Assembly (NCBI RefSeq): GCF_000407485.1
Contig: NZ_ASWD01000001.1
Span: 124,001-188,000 of the forward strand
Origin: Enterococcus pallens ATCC BAA-351
GTDB taxonomy: Bacteria > Bacillota > Bacilli > Lactobacillales > Enterococcaceae
DNA length: 64,000 nucleotides
Direction: 5' to 3'
Part shown: piece after piece, positions 30,746 through 51,036 of the stretch
Layout: each line of letters starts with the position of its first letter
How positions within the stretch are numbered: the stretch's first letter is position 1
Notes under the pieces: model-generated
The model's database searches: none
What the model was told of the DNA's origin: nothing
What the model saw: only the letters and a program-made list of their open reading frames with translations
Program-made: the position numbers and the translations under genes

Positions 30746-31528
30746 ATGGCAATTTTGACATTTGAAGACGTATCACTAATCCGGCAGAAGAAAATCTTGC
30801 TGGATACGATTAATTGGCAAATAGAAGAAGGGCAGGATTGGGCACTATTAGGCCTAAACGGAGCAGGCAAGACGTTGCTGCTGCAAATGATTTCCGGCAA
30901 CATGTGGCCGAGTAAAGGGAAATTAACTGTTTTAGGCGAAGTGTTTGGCAAGACATCTATTCCTGATCTAACTAAACGGATCGGTTGGGTAAGCAATATT
31001 TTGCAATATCGATTCCAGCAAAGCGAAACTGCTGAACGAATTGTACTTTCAGGGAAATTTGCCAGCATCGGCATCTATCAGCATTTTACTGAAGAGGAAA
31101 TGCAAGAGGCCAAAGAGATATTAAGCTCCCTAAGCGGAAAGGATTTAGTTGGGAAACCCTATCAAGTCCTGTCACAAGGAGAACGCCAAGTGGTATTGAT
31201 TGCGCGAGCATTGATGGCCCACCCAGAGCTGCTGATCCTAGACGAACCATGTAACGGCTTGGATCTATTTGCCCGCGAAGATCTATTGGATCGGATTCAA
31301 CAAATTAAACAAAGCGCAGATGCACCAAGTTTACTATATGTAACCCATCATACTGAAGAAATTTTACCATTGATCAGCCACGTACTAATGGTTAAAGACG
31401 GCAAAATTTTCAAACAAGGAACCAGGGAAGAACTAATTACCGAAGACACCCTAACCCAGTTCTACACCAGACCAATTGATATTCACGAACTAACCACCGA
31501 CCGGCTAATGGTTATGCCCAAAAAATAG
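30746..31528 (+). CDS. Stand-alone ABC ATPase (YlmA-like)
   Basis: The 260-aa protein has Walker A LNGAGKTLL near residue 38, signature VLSQGERQVVLIARALM near 134 and Walker B LLILDEPCNGLDLFARED. The general form resembles YlmA and iron- or molybdate-type ABC ATPases with no permease gene beside it, so it may work with a partner encoded elsewhere or as a soluble ATPase. GGTAGGAGGATGACGT gives the start. The CRISPR array lies 180 bases after its stop. Confidence 0.85.
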   Translation: MAILTFEDVSLIRQKKILLDTINWQIEEGQDWALLGLNGAGKTLLLQMISGNMWPSKGKLTVLGEVFGKTSIPDLTKRIGWVSNILQYRFQQSETAERIVLSGKFASIGIYQHFTEEEMQEAKEILSSLSGKDLVGKPYQVLSQGERQVVLIARALMAHPELLILDEPCNGLDLFAREDLLDRIQQIKQSADAPSLLYVTHHTEEILPLISHVLMVKDGKIFKQGTREELITEDTLTQFYTRPIDIHELTTDRLMVMPKK

Positions 31529-31710
31529 CACGAATCTGTCGACCGTCAATAACACTAAAAACCCCTAGTTACGACAGACGAGTCAAACCGTTGGTGCCAA
31601 AGGGCTTAACAATTTATTCGTGTTATCTTTGCTTTAAAAAGGCCTGAGATATAGGCGATCGACAGAAAGGGTTCTTCTTAGCCCGCCGTAACAAGGCTGG
31701 CTCTATGCGA
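31529..31710 (+). other. Upstream (leader-side) region of the CRISPR array
   Basis: No gene is present. The region has competing inverted repeats: CTGTCG (31536-31541) can pair with CGACAG at 31572-31577 or within TCGACAG at 31659-31665, and CACGAAT (31529-31535) can pair with ATTCGTG (31616-31622). A weak TTGCTT / TATAGG pair (31629-31655) is the only promoter candidate. It is less AT-rich than typical CRISPR leaders. The repeat polymorphisms (see array) place the leader on this side. Confidence 0.4.
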
Positions 31711-32319
31711 GTTCAAATCTAAAAGAGTGAAATGTAAATAAAGATAATGAAATCACTGTTTTCTTTCATAACCTCGTTCAAATCTAAAAGAGTGGAATGT
31801 AAATGGCGAAGGGAGCCCCATGAGTGGGGTTTGGGGTAGAGGTTCAAATCTAAAAGAGTGGAATGTAAATCACCGTGGACGAATTAAAGACAAGGACTTT
31901 CAAGGTTCAAATCTAAAATAGTGGAATGTAAATAGTTTCTCCCGTTCTCTTTTTAAATTAGTTCTCATTAGTTCAAATCTAAAATAGTGGAATGTAAATT
32001 ATCACAACCACGCCCGAACAAGCAACCGTCTATTATCTAAATCTAAAATAGTGGAATGTAAATGGTTGATTTTGCATGGGAATGAACGAATGTTGTTTCG
32101 TTCAAATCTAAAATAGTGGAATGTAAATTATCAAAGATAAGAATAATCAAGATGACCCCTATGGTTCAAATCTAAAATAGTGGAATGTAAATATGGTAGC
32201 CGATTGCGGATCAATGTCCCTGTTAAGTTCAAATCTAAAATAGTGGAATGTAAATTAGTTTGGATCGTCTTGGAAAACTGACAAAATGTAGTTCAAATCT
32301 AAAATAGTGGAATAAAAGA
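31711..32319 (+). CRISPR. CRISPR array, 10 repeats of 29 bp and 9 spacers, no cas genes nearby
   Basis: Repeats start GTTCAAATCT and end GTGGAATGTAAAT. Full repeats begin at 31711, 31776, 31842, 31905, 31971, 32035, 32100, 32164 and 32227; the tenth, at 32291, loses the repeat after 23 bases. Spacers are 34-37 bp and all differ. The ATGTAAAT end is like type I-B repeats of Listeria and clostridia, so crRNA would read on the plus strand. Repeats 1-3 carry G at position 15 (AAAAGAG) where the others have T, and repeat 1 has a further G-to-A change. Repeat 6 has lost its first four bases (ATCT for GTTC). Variation at the left and decay at the right put the leader on the left. No cas gene is seen in 64 kb. 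Confidence 0.95.
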
Positions 32320-32381
32320 AGGTATTAGAGTCACAAATACCTCACCCAAAACAGTGCAACGCCAACCAAAGCTATTAGTAG

Positions 32382-32421
32382 CGGTATTATTAGAATCTTA
32401 AGTCTAATAATACCGTTTTTT
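32382..32421 (+). terminator. Terminator downstream of the CRISPR array
   Basis: CGGTATTATTAGA (32382-32394) pairs with TCTAATAATACCG (32403-32415), followed by TTTTTT. No protein gene precedes it on this strand except the array, so it most likely ends the array transcript. Confidence 0.85.
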
Positions 32422-32579
32422 CACGTATCTAATCTAAAAACTCACCAATTCTCGACAAGTAGTTTTATTCATGGGTATATAAGATATTAATATCGCAAAA
32501 GAAATAAGTGCTAACTACCAAAATTAGCACCAAAACACCCAAAAAACATATGGACACTCCACCTCCCAAACCAATGAAC

Positions 32580-32622: not shown

Positions 32623-34326
32623 TTAACTTTTCAGACTTTCTTCAGGGATTTCAGCTAAATAGTCAGCAACATTTTGAATAACGCTCTTCATCGCCTCAGA
32701 ATCAAAAGGAGAGACGAGATTTCCAAGTGCCACTGTTTCAAGGAAAGTCTTTGTTCCACCAATTTTACAAATGGCTAAGTAATCATTCCAAACCTGAGGA
32801 TCTTTTTCAATTATGGCTCGTTGCCAAAACTGAAAGGCACAGACTTGTGCTAGGGTGTAATCAATATAATAGAAGGGAACTTCAAAAATATGTCCCTGAC
32901 GATACCAGTAAGTTCCTCGCTCCAAATCGGAGGATTGACGGTAATCTCGTTCTGGACAATATTGTTTTTCCAATTTACGCCAGCAGGCCTTCCTTTGAGC
33001 CGGAGTCCATTCAGGATGCGAATAAACCTCCTCTTGAAAATGATCCACCAATGCTCCATAAGGTAAGAACTGCAAAGCACTGCTAAGATGAGCAAAGCGA
33101 TACTTATCACTGGCAGTTCCGAAGAATTCCTCCATCCATGGCCAGGTAAGAAATTCCATACTCATCGAATGAATTTCAGCGGTATCCGAAGTAGGGAAGA
33201 CTAGTTCAGGTTCCTCGATCCACCGGGAAAGATAGCTTTGAAACGCATGGCCGGTTTCATGAGTTAACACATCTACATCATCAGAGGTTCCATTAAAGTT
33301 GGCAAAAATAAACGGCATATGATAGGCATCGATAAATTCACAGTAACCGCCGCTTTGTTTGCCTGCTCGGCTAGTTAAATCCATCAACTGCTGCTGTGTC
33401 AGCAAATCAAAAAAGTCACCGGTCTCCGTTGATAACTGATGATACATTGTTCGGGCCTTTTCCACCAGCTCGCATTCTTTACCTTGCGGCTTAGCATTGC
33501 CGTCCGGGAAAACCAGCGGCAAATCATAATAAGATAATTCAGAAAGCTTCAATCGATCAGCCTGTCGTCGATACAGCTCCTGGGTTTTAGGTACAATCTC
33601 TTCTAAGATGAACTGGCGAAACGACTGAATCTGACTGCGGTCATAGCTCCAGCGGTTCATGGCAATATCCCCATAAGCGACATAATTATCAAAGCCTAAC
33701 TGTTGGGCGATGGCTGTTCGCAGCTTAACCAGCTGATCGAAAATTTCGTCAAAGCGTGCTTCATTTTTCGTAAAAAAGCTTTGATAAATTTTTTGAGCTT
33801 TGCGGCGAGTAAAGCGATCCTTTGCTGTAAAGCAGGCTGAAATTTCTGACAGCGTATATTTTTTTCCATCAAAAAGCAGCTGGGCTGAAGCAATCAATTG
33901 AGTATATTGACTAATCCACTCGTTTTCCTGCTGTTTGAGTTGAACTACGCGATCATCCAATAAACGAACTTGATCATTCGCCAGCAGAAATAAGGTCTCA
34001 GGGAAAGCTTGTTTCAATTCTGTTTGAAAAGGGGAGTGAAGCAAAGCCTGATAAAATTCATGATGAACCTGATCAAATAAGGGCTGATGCTCATCCCAAT
34101 AATTATTCTCCTGCGCATAAAAACGGTCATTGGTATTGATGGAATGACGAATATAAGCAAGTTTTGCCATCGTATCTATGTCGGTTCGAAGCTTATTCAA
34201 TTCAGTAAGAGCCCCTCGAGCGGCTTCAAAGCTTGCAGCTTGAGTAAAACCAGTTAACTGGTTGTTAAAGGTATTTTTGTAAGCATCAAAATCTGGACGA
34301 TCATAAGTAAATTGTGCAAATTCCAT
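32623..34326 (-). CDS. M3-family oligoendopeptidase
   Basis: The ATG at 34326 is chosen because GGGAGGAATCGCT stands before it. The 567-aa cytoplasmic zinc peptidase has the catalytic motif His356-Glu-Thr-Gly-His360 in VLTHETGHAFQSYL and the third-ligand region ETSDTAEIHSMSMEFLTWPW shortly after, as in M3 (PepF-like) oligoendopeptidases. It cuts short peptides such as those imported for nutrition or left by signal-peptide turnover. The length fits the M3 branch of about 560-600 residues. It is monocistronic. Confidence 0.92.
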   Translation of the reverse strand: MEFAQFTYDRPDFDAYKNTFNNQLTGFTQAASFEAARGALTELNKLRTDIDTMAKLAYIRHSINTNDRFYAQENNYWDEHQPLFDQVHHEFYQALLHSPFQTELKQAFPETLFLLANDQVRLLDDRVVQLKQQENEWISQYTQLIASAQLLFDGKKYTLSEISACFTAKDRFTRRKAQKIYQSFFTKNEARFDEIFDQLVKLRTAIAQQLGFDNYVAYGDIAMNRWSYDRSQIQSFRQFILEEIVPKTQELYRRQADRLKLSELSYYDLPLVFPDGNAKPQGKECELVEKARTMYHQLSTETGDFFDLLTQQQLMDLTSRAGKQSGGYCEFIDAYHMPFIFANFNGTSDDVDVLTHETGHAFQSYLSRWIEEPELVFPTSDTAEIHSMSMEFLTWPWMEEFFGTASDKYRFAHLSSALQFLPYGALVDHFQEEVYSHPEWTPAQRKACWRKLEKQYCPERDYRQSSDLERGTYWYRQGHIFEVPFYYIDYTLAQVCAFQFWQRAIIEKDPQVWNDYLAICKIGGTKTFLETVALGNLVSPFDSEAMKSVIQNVADYLAEIPEESLKS

Positions 34327-34384
34327 AGCGATTCCTCCCAACACTTTTCTTTATTATAACCCAGTAGGTAAAGAAACAGCAGAG

Positions 34385-50765: not shown

Positions 50766-50785
50766 TTTAAAAAAATACAGGTTAG

Positions 50786-51036
50786 ACAAAAGAGTAGTAA
50801 CATGATTTTCTCTTTTCAGAGAGCTGATGGTGCTGTGAATCAGTAAGGAAAATGATGCGAATGGACTTTTGAACCGAGATTTTGAAGCTCAGTAGGAATC
50901 TCCGGGAACTCCCGTTACAGAGAAAGGCTGTTGTTAGACAGCTGATAGAGAGATGCTTTTTAAGCATATATTGAGGTGGCACCGTGGATTAACCGCCCTC
51001 AAGTTGGACATTCGTCTGACTTGGGGGCTTTTTTTA
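50786..51036 (+). ncRNA. T-box riboswitch 1, tryptophan (UGG)
   Basis: The leader has a long stem I with the specifier TGG at 50862-50864 (GCGAATGGAC), the AGTAGGA-type element near 50891, the T-box sequence TGAGGTGGCACCGTGG at 50972-50987, and a terminator hairpin GCCCTCAAGT/ACTTGGGGGC (50994-51027) with a T-run. Uncharged tRNA-Trp is expected to stabilise the antiterminator and let transcription proceed into trp. Confidence 0.92.

Follow-up and report, generated by a model that had tools for sequence, protein, structure and literature searches.

The locus at positions 31711..32319 of the window, the whole 64,000-nucleotide stretch of the Enterococcus pallens ATCC BAA-351 genome analysed here, is very probably an orphan type I-B CRISPR array, left over after the Cas genes were lost from the genome. 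It consists of a leader, ten repeats with nine unique spacers and an intrinsic terminator; it is kin to arrays that adjoin type I-B cas operons in other members of the genus; and none of the five Cas families searched for was found over cut-off in the assembly. From this arrangement we infer past use as a guide memory, subsequent cas loss and no present interference. Of the three options in the original prediction, namely a cas locus elsewhere, a relic and a regulatory RNA, the relic fits best. By itself, the array is ordinary. The features of the locus are:

30746..31528, + strand: ABC transporter ATP-binding protein gene, the left-hand neighbour
31534..31710, + strand: leader, 177 bp (alignment of 19 upstream regions, box spacing and column conservation)
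31534-31542, + strand: leader box A, ATCTGTCGA (upstream-region alignment)
31566-31577, + strand: leader box B, TAGTTACGACAG (upstream-region alignment)
31621-31626, + strand: leader box C, TGTTAT (upstream-region alignment)
31659-31667, + strand: leader box D, TCGACAGAA (upstream-region alignment)
31711..32319, + strand: CRISPR array of ten 29-bp repeats and nine spacers (sequence inspection and genome pattern search)
32291..32319, + strand: trailer-end repeat R10, with a decayed 3' end (AATAAAAGA) (sequence inspection)
32380..32421, + strand: intrinsic terminator, a 15-pair hairpin (32380-32417) with a T-run (32416-32421) (folding)
32623..34344, - strand: M3-family peptidase gene, the right-hand neighbour and synteny marker

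The repeats start at positions 31711, 31776, 31842, 31905, 31971, 32035, 32100, 32164, 32227 and 32291, and the ten copies give the consensus GTTCAAATCTAAAA[G/T]AGTG[A/G]AATGTAAAT. The nine spacers are 34-37 bp long and no two are alike, so that direct inspection, together with a pattern search of the genome, bears out the repeats and spacers as first described. In that search, at ≤3 mismatches, nine forward matches were obtained, all within the array (R10 is too decayed to count), and the reversed-pattern control gave 0 matches, which excludes chance. No second copy of the repeat was found outside the array in the whole assembly at ≤3 mismatches, which answers the proposed search for further arrays of the same repeat in the negative at that threshold. 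Direct repeats within the ~25-40 bp range, unique spacers of even length and a leader that adjoins the first repeat and is common to sister arrays are all present, as in a CRISPR array. That the locus is some other kind of tandem repeat has practically no probability, this reading being refuted by the unique, even-length spacers, by the leader boxes at 15 other loci and by the cas operons beside arrays of the same family.

Position 15 of the repeat is G in R1-R3 and T in the other seven copies, and R1 differs from R2 by one base change that is absent from R2. The 5' end of R6 (32035-32038) is ATCT instead of GTTC, and this ATCT start is also found in repeats of two relatives, G009 and G006 (genus genomes are given here by our own codes). 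The decay of R10 marks the old end of the array, on the right, and the distribution of the variants along the array is as expected if new units were added on the left, next to the leader. Because the R1 change was not copied into R2, no spacer appears to have been added after that change. The terminator that had been predicted is present, the hairpin at 32380-32417 having a folding energy of -18.2 kcal/mol (z -6.1) and a T-run. The consensus terminator scan missed this hairpin, so its silence elsewhere is weak evidence. The RNA fold of the whole array shows no excess of structure over 20 shuffles (z -0.81), which does not sustain the idea of an RNA with unusual structure. The coordinates 31711..32319 correctly delimit the repeats, and the locus as a whole also takes in the leader (31534-31710) as well as the terminator.

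Among the 19 upstream regions aligned, 16 contain both box A and box D at near-constant spacing, with box A at -176 to -182 and box D at -51 to -56 from the scanned 28-mer; the three exceptions are G017_solo, G016_soloplus and G011_C11, a locus with two repeats. The leader boxes are thus common to the window array and 15 other loci, one of them in the E. pallens genome itself. Boxes A and D form an inverted repeat (TCTGTCGA / TCGACAGA) and are paired in the predicted fold of the leader region (z -1.63), a fold to which we give no weight as evidence. Two conserved inverted-repeat motifs are described for C. difficile type I-B leaders in an earlier report (PMC8406132), and inverted leader motifs as such are therefore not new. 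What the alignment documents is a layout in which four boxes, including one inverted pair, keep a nearly fixed spacing; this layout is common to type I-B arrays of the genus and is a candidate for a role in spacer acquisition.

The window leader and first repeat keep 73 of 76 conserved columns, a value in the range of leaders from cas-bearing genomes (66/83 to 76/76). This slight decay of leader and R1 suggests that cas loss may be recent, or that the element is kept for a reason. A TATAAT lies 13-18 nt 5' of the repeat in 10 of 16 leaders; the window leader has GCTGGC there (about 31696-31701), and G016_a2 has TATACT. The motif is also missing from a second leader of this genome, on contig C3, and from G011_C13, G006_C5 and G017_a. 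A missing -10 box was considered as proof of silence and rejected, since the last three leaders, which lack TATAAT too, come from cas-bearing genomes. The C3 leader is identical to the window leader at 124 of 176 aligned positions and keeps 69 of 77 conserved columns. It is followed by one decayed repeat, with no further repeat there, and looks like the stump of another array.

The assembly comprises 5,437,454 bases (5.44 Mb) in 13 contigs and is 99.2% complete. The genome-wide Cas searches covered five families, Cas1, Cas3, Cas6, Cas7 and Cas9. No Cas1 (PF01867), Cas6 (TIGR01877) or Cas7 (TIGR02585) was found in the assembly, the same models giving matches over cut-off in 9, 7 and 1 of 14 control genomes, respectively. 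All 13 Cas3 matches stay below the cut-off (controls over cut-off, 6/14); the highest-scoring one, at 42.2 of 102.45 bits, is RecG (978.8 bits). Cas9 gave 3 matches, none over cut-off, in a search where 0 of 14 controls exceeded the cut-off and which is thus without a positive control. These three matches are equal (20.2 bits) and lie in 662-aa frames at C1:7007, C4:112452 and C8:133875 of this genome; the one at C1:7007 is a group II intron reverse transcriptase/maturase, and the three are probably one group II intron in three copies. A second Cas6 model, PF10040, had no matches in this genome or in the genus and was set aside as the wrong model, the Cas6 proteins of the relatives matching TIGR01877 and PF01881.

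With no Cas6 or Cas7, and with no Cas3 over cut-off, the locus is an orphan array and not a complete type I-B system; Cas1, for spacer acquisition, is missing likewise. Type II-A is not indicated either, the repeats being 29 bp rather than 36 bp and no Cas9 being over cut-off here (or in any control). The predicted lack of cas genes thus extends, for these five families, to the whole assembly, and a cas locus elsewhere in the genome finds no match over cut-off among them.

The type I-B character of the array is apparent from its relatives. At ≤3 mismatches the repeat occurs in 8 of 20 genus genomes, E. pallens included, and a looser scan of selected loci placed the repeat family in 10 of the 20 (E. 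pallens, G002, G006, G008, G009, G011, G012, G015, G016 and G017), some copies having an extra base. Named genomes in the repeat scan are Enterococcus hulanensis, E. florum, E. raffinosus (two), E. avium and E. canintestini, and the scan also found Enterococcus sp. 669A, CSURQ0835 and a metagenome-assembled Enterococcaceae genome. Cas6 and Cas7 are over cut-off in the same six of the 20 genomes (G006, G008, G009, G011, G016 and G017), and a seventh genome, G013, matches the Cas6 model weakly (E 0.05). Repeats without Cas6 and Cas7 are found in E. pallens and in G002, G012 and G015, the last three with two or three repeats only in the locus examined. In G009 the operon adjoining the array reads cas6-cas8b1-cas7-cas5-cas3-cas4-cas1, and the operon adjoining the array at G006:C5 has the same gene set by Pfam (both for genes other than cas2). 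The repeat is thus common to arrays beside I-B cas operons. Moreover, the I-B loci assigned to E. hulanensis, E. florum, E. raffinosus N17 and Enterococcus sp. CSURQ0835 have the same leader boxes as the window, and these four genomes have Cas6 and Cas7, whereas E. pallens has neither.

Both the repeat family and an I-B operon have been described in Enterococcus before. A survey of 110 enterococci describes one type I-B operon with repeat DR14 (GTCTAAATCTAAAAATAGTGGAATGTAAAT) and 20 strains with orphan arrays (PMC10165109). DR14 is of the same repeat family as the window array, has the same 3' end and is nearly identical, and this match, together with the relatives' I-B operons that adjoin same-family arrays, upholds the earlier description of the repeats as type I-B-like. 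A limited literature search found no paper on type I-B in E. raffinosus or E. avium.

A divergent type I-B operon was also observed, at G011:C12 and G006:C33, with the order cas6, a 506-507-aa ORF, cas7, cas5 and cas3. The ORF sits in the place of cas8 and has no NCBIfam match, and neither Cas1 nor Cas4 turned up when the ORFs of these operons were scanned. At G011:C12, cas6, cas7, cas5 and cas3 match their models and the 506-aa ORF matches none; there, too, the scanned ORFs include no Cas1 or Cas4, and the contig ends soon after cas3.

The site of the array was compared through its neighbouring genes. A counterpart of the ABC gene is present in 16 of the 20 genus genomes, E. pallens included, and the other four are without one at E 1e-60. 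Within the region surveyed, up to 1.5 kb downstream of the ABC gene (704 bases in G011), leader and repeat follow the gene in 2 of the 16 genomes, E. pallens and G011. At this site G011 has 63 repeats on two contig ends, 56 of them closing contig C1 and 7 opening C13. The 7 repeats on C13 lie beside the ABC gene, and those on C1 are separated from the M3 gene by ~2.7 kb containing two further genes; the G011 orthologues are 86% (M3) and 92% (ABC) identical. The two sets of repeats are presumably parts of one array. Over three neighbouring genes, identity to E. pallens is 93, 98 and 94% for G005 and 92, 87 and 90% for G011, making G005 the closest genome by this measure. No array is present at the G005 site, where 218 bases separate the aligned ABC and M3 ends, and profile searches found no Cas6 and no Cas7 in G005. 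If the common ancestor had the array, it would have been lost in G005. Independent gain in E. pallens and G011 seems less likely, since both site and leader are common to the two. G011 (operon and long array), E. pallens (array, no cas) and G005 (no array at the site) thus represent three apparent stages of CRISPR-Cas loss, a useful natural series in which to ask why arrays may outlast their cas genes.

A further explanation is that the array is a standby memory, kept while cas operons are gained and lost among strains of the species and working in trans when cas is present. This is compatible with the orphan-array explanation and adds to it that the array is still useful. In G011 the repeats at the same site are accompanied by an interference operon on another contig, the Listeria rliB array works with cas encoded in trans (PMC3886909) and the window leader is well kept, all of which agree with such a role. 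However, the R1 change remains uncopied, so there has been no acquisition since it arose, and G005, the closest genome by the three neighbouring genes, is without an array at the site. We therefore regard standby use as possible and hold it tentatively, well behind simple retention of an orphan array after cas loss.

The spacers provide no target. For the nine spacers, no protospacer above chance was found in limited searches of phages, plasmids, IMG/VR and family genomes, and the case for past immune use therefore rests on form alone. The whole array gave no match to phages or plasmids at E ≤1e-5. At E ≤10 it matched 222 phage records, and in the 30 of these listed all seven pieces fall on one 29-bp place, a pattern that we read, for those 30 of 222, as the repeat matched seven times by chance; the plasmids gave 5 weak records (best E 0.5). 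Searched singly against phages, eight of the nine spacers gave weak matches only, the best being spacer 3 against the primase of a Helicobacter phage (E 0.1 over 23 positions); spacer 3 matched 29 phage records, 4 of them from Listeria phages. Exact 20-22-mers from each of the same number of spacers (8/9) had 0 matches in IMG/VR. For spacer 2 the searches were those with the whole array and the comparison with the genus loci. In the family-wide search of 105 genomes, with 5 candidates scored per genome, all matches listed overlap a repeat; beyond these, G027, G066, G073, G097, G098, G100 and G101 gave single weak matches (E 2.5e-4 to 0.0085), which may include a spacer match. The suggested search for a spacer match to phage or plasmid thus gave none above chance (eight of nine spacers singly, and exact matches in the case of IMG/VR).

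Arrays without the cas genes of their type are known in other settings. The orphan CRISPR2 of enterococci (PMC11852239) is from the same genus and likewise usually without cas; unlike the window array, it is of type II-A, with repeats of 36 bp (PMC10165109) against 29 bp here. E. coli I-F orphan arrays are also without cas of their type and are reported to carry anti-cas spacers (PMC12814883). Their existence is the ground for supposing that the window spacers might target cas genes and so exclude an incoming operon. However, when each of the nine spacers was compared with three shuffled versions of itself, none did better than the best of those versions against the relatives' loci, which include whole or partial cas operons of G006, G009, G011, G016 and G017, and an anti-cas array is therefore hardly credible here.

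The array had also been likened to the RliB-CRISPR of Listeria. As described in the literature (PMC3886909), RliB has a 29-nt repeat ending GAAATGTAAAT, spacers of 35-37 nt, no cas genes and its own terminator, and its repeat, like that of the window array, is almost identical to the type I-B repeat of its genus. One half of the likeness stands, the lack of cas in the genome (five families here), as in L. monocytogenes EGD-e. The other half, conservation of the locus, does not: RliB is reported from a single site in the L. monocytogenes genomes that were analysed and in further species of Listeria, whereas the window array is at its site in 2 of the 16 genus genomes with the ABC gene (≤1.5 kb downstream). 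In addition, RliB is reported to be expressed and processed. Cas-less RliB gives no interference in EGD-e, and interference is obtained with cas in trans plus PNPase (PMC3886909).

A Cas-independent small RNA of the rliB kind, transcribed, trimmed by PNPase and acting without Cas, would share the repeat length and 3' end (ATGTAAAT), similar spacer lengths, the lack of cas and the own terminator. Such an RNA is nonetheless quite improbable in our estimation, given that its locus is not conserved, that the array fold does not exceed shuffles and that no TATAAT lies 5' of the repeats, rliB having a reported RpoD-type promoter (PMC3886909). The broader proposal that the array is not dead, whether as a transcript that reads through from the ABC gene, stops at the array's terminator and acts without Cas in the manner of rliB or as a memory reused with regained cas genes, appears unlikely; leader and repeats would then be intact because they are kept as such a transcript or reusable memory.

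The preferred explanation, an orphan array after cas loss, can be put as a sequence of events. The array would once have served a cas operon at another place in the genome, on the model of the G011 layout, and would have grown at the leader end until growth stopped at cas loss. Alone, it would now give no interference. Because the usual -10 box is missing, the array may be transcribed, if at all, through continuation of ABC-gene transcripts. Five bases separate the ABC stop codon from leader box A, no + strand terminator was found from the ABC gene to the array in the consensus scan (which also missed the 32380 terminator), and the fold of 31500-31710 has no hairpin with a T-run after it; read-through into the array is possible on this evidence. 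Such a transcript would either remain unprocessed or be broken down by general RNases, and function could return if a matching cas operon were acquired.

Some further elements were observed. In G017 (L053:14476-14400, - strand), two repeat-like sequences lie ~160-210 nt 5' of cas6 and 51 nt apart, matching 22/24 and 18/24 bases (best of 100 shuffles, 17), and are followed by an apparent terminator hairpin, as judged by eye. CreR and CreA are crRNA-like regulators of cas operons, and the G017 pair could possibly be a regulator of this kind. A repeat-like sequence 5' of cas6 in G009 matched 18/24 bases, equal to the best of 100 shuffles, and was dropped. Within the window, the stretch at 32489-32510, AATATCGCAAAAGAAATAAGTG, is a single copy (≤3 mismatches) and recurs in several genus genomes, there too downstream of the ABC gene; its 16-bp core is exact in 6 of 16 genomes and has one or two mismatches in 3 more, and similar stretches occur elsewhere in some genomes. 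The sole Rfam match of the window over the gathering score is a T-box leader (RF00230) at 50775-51003.
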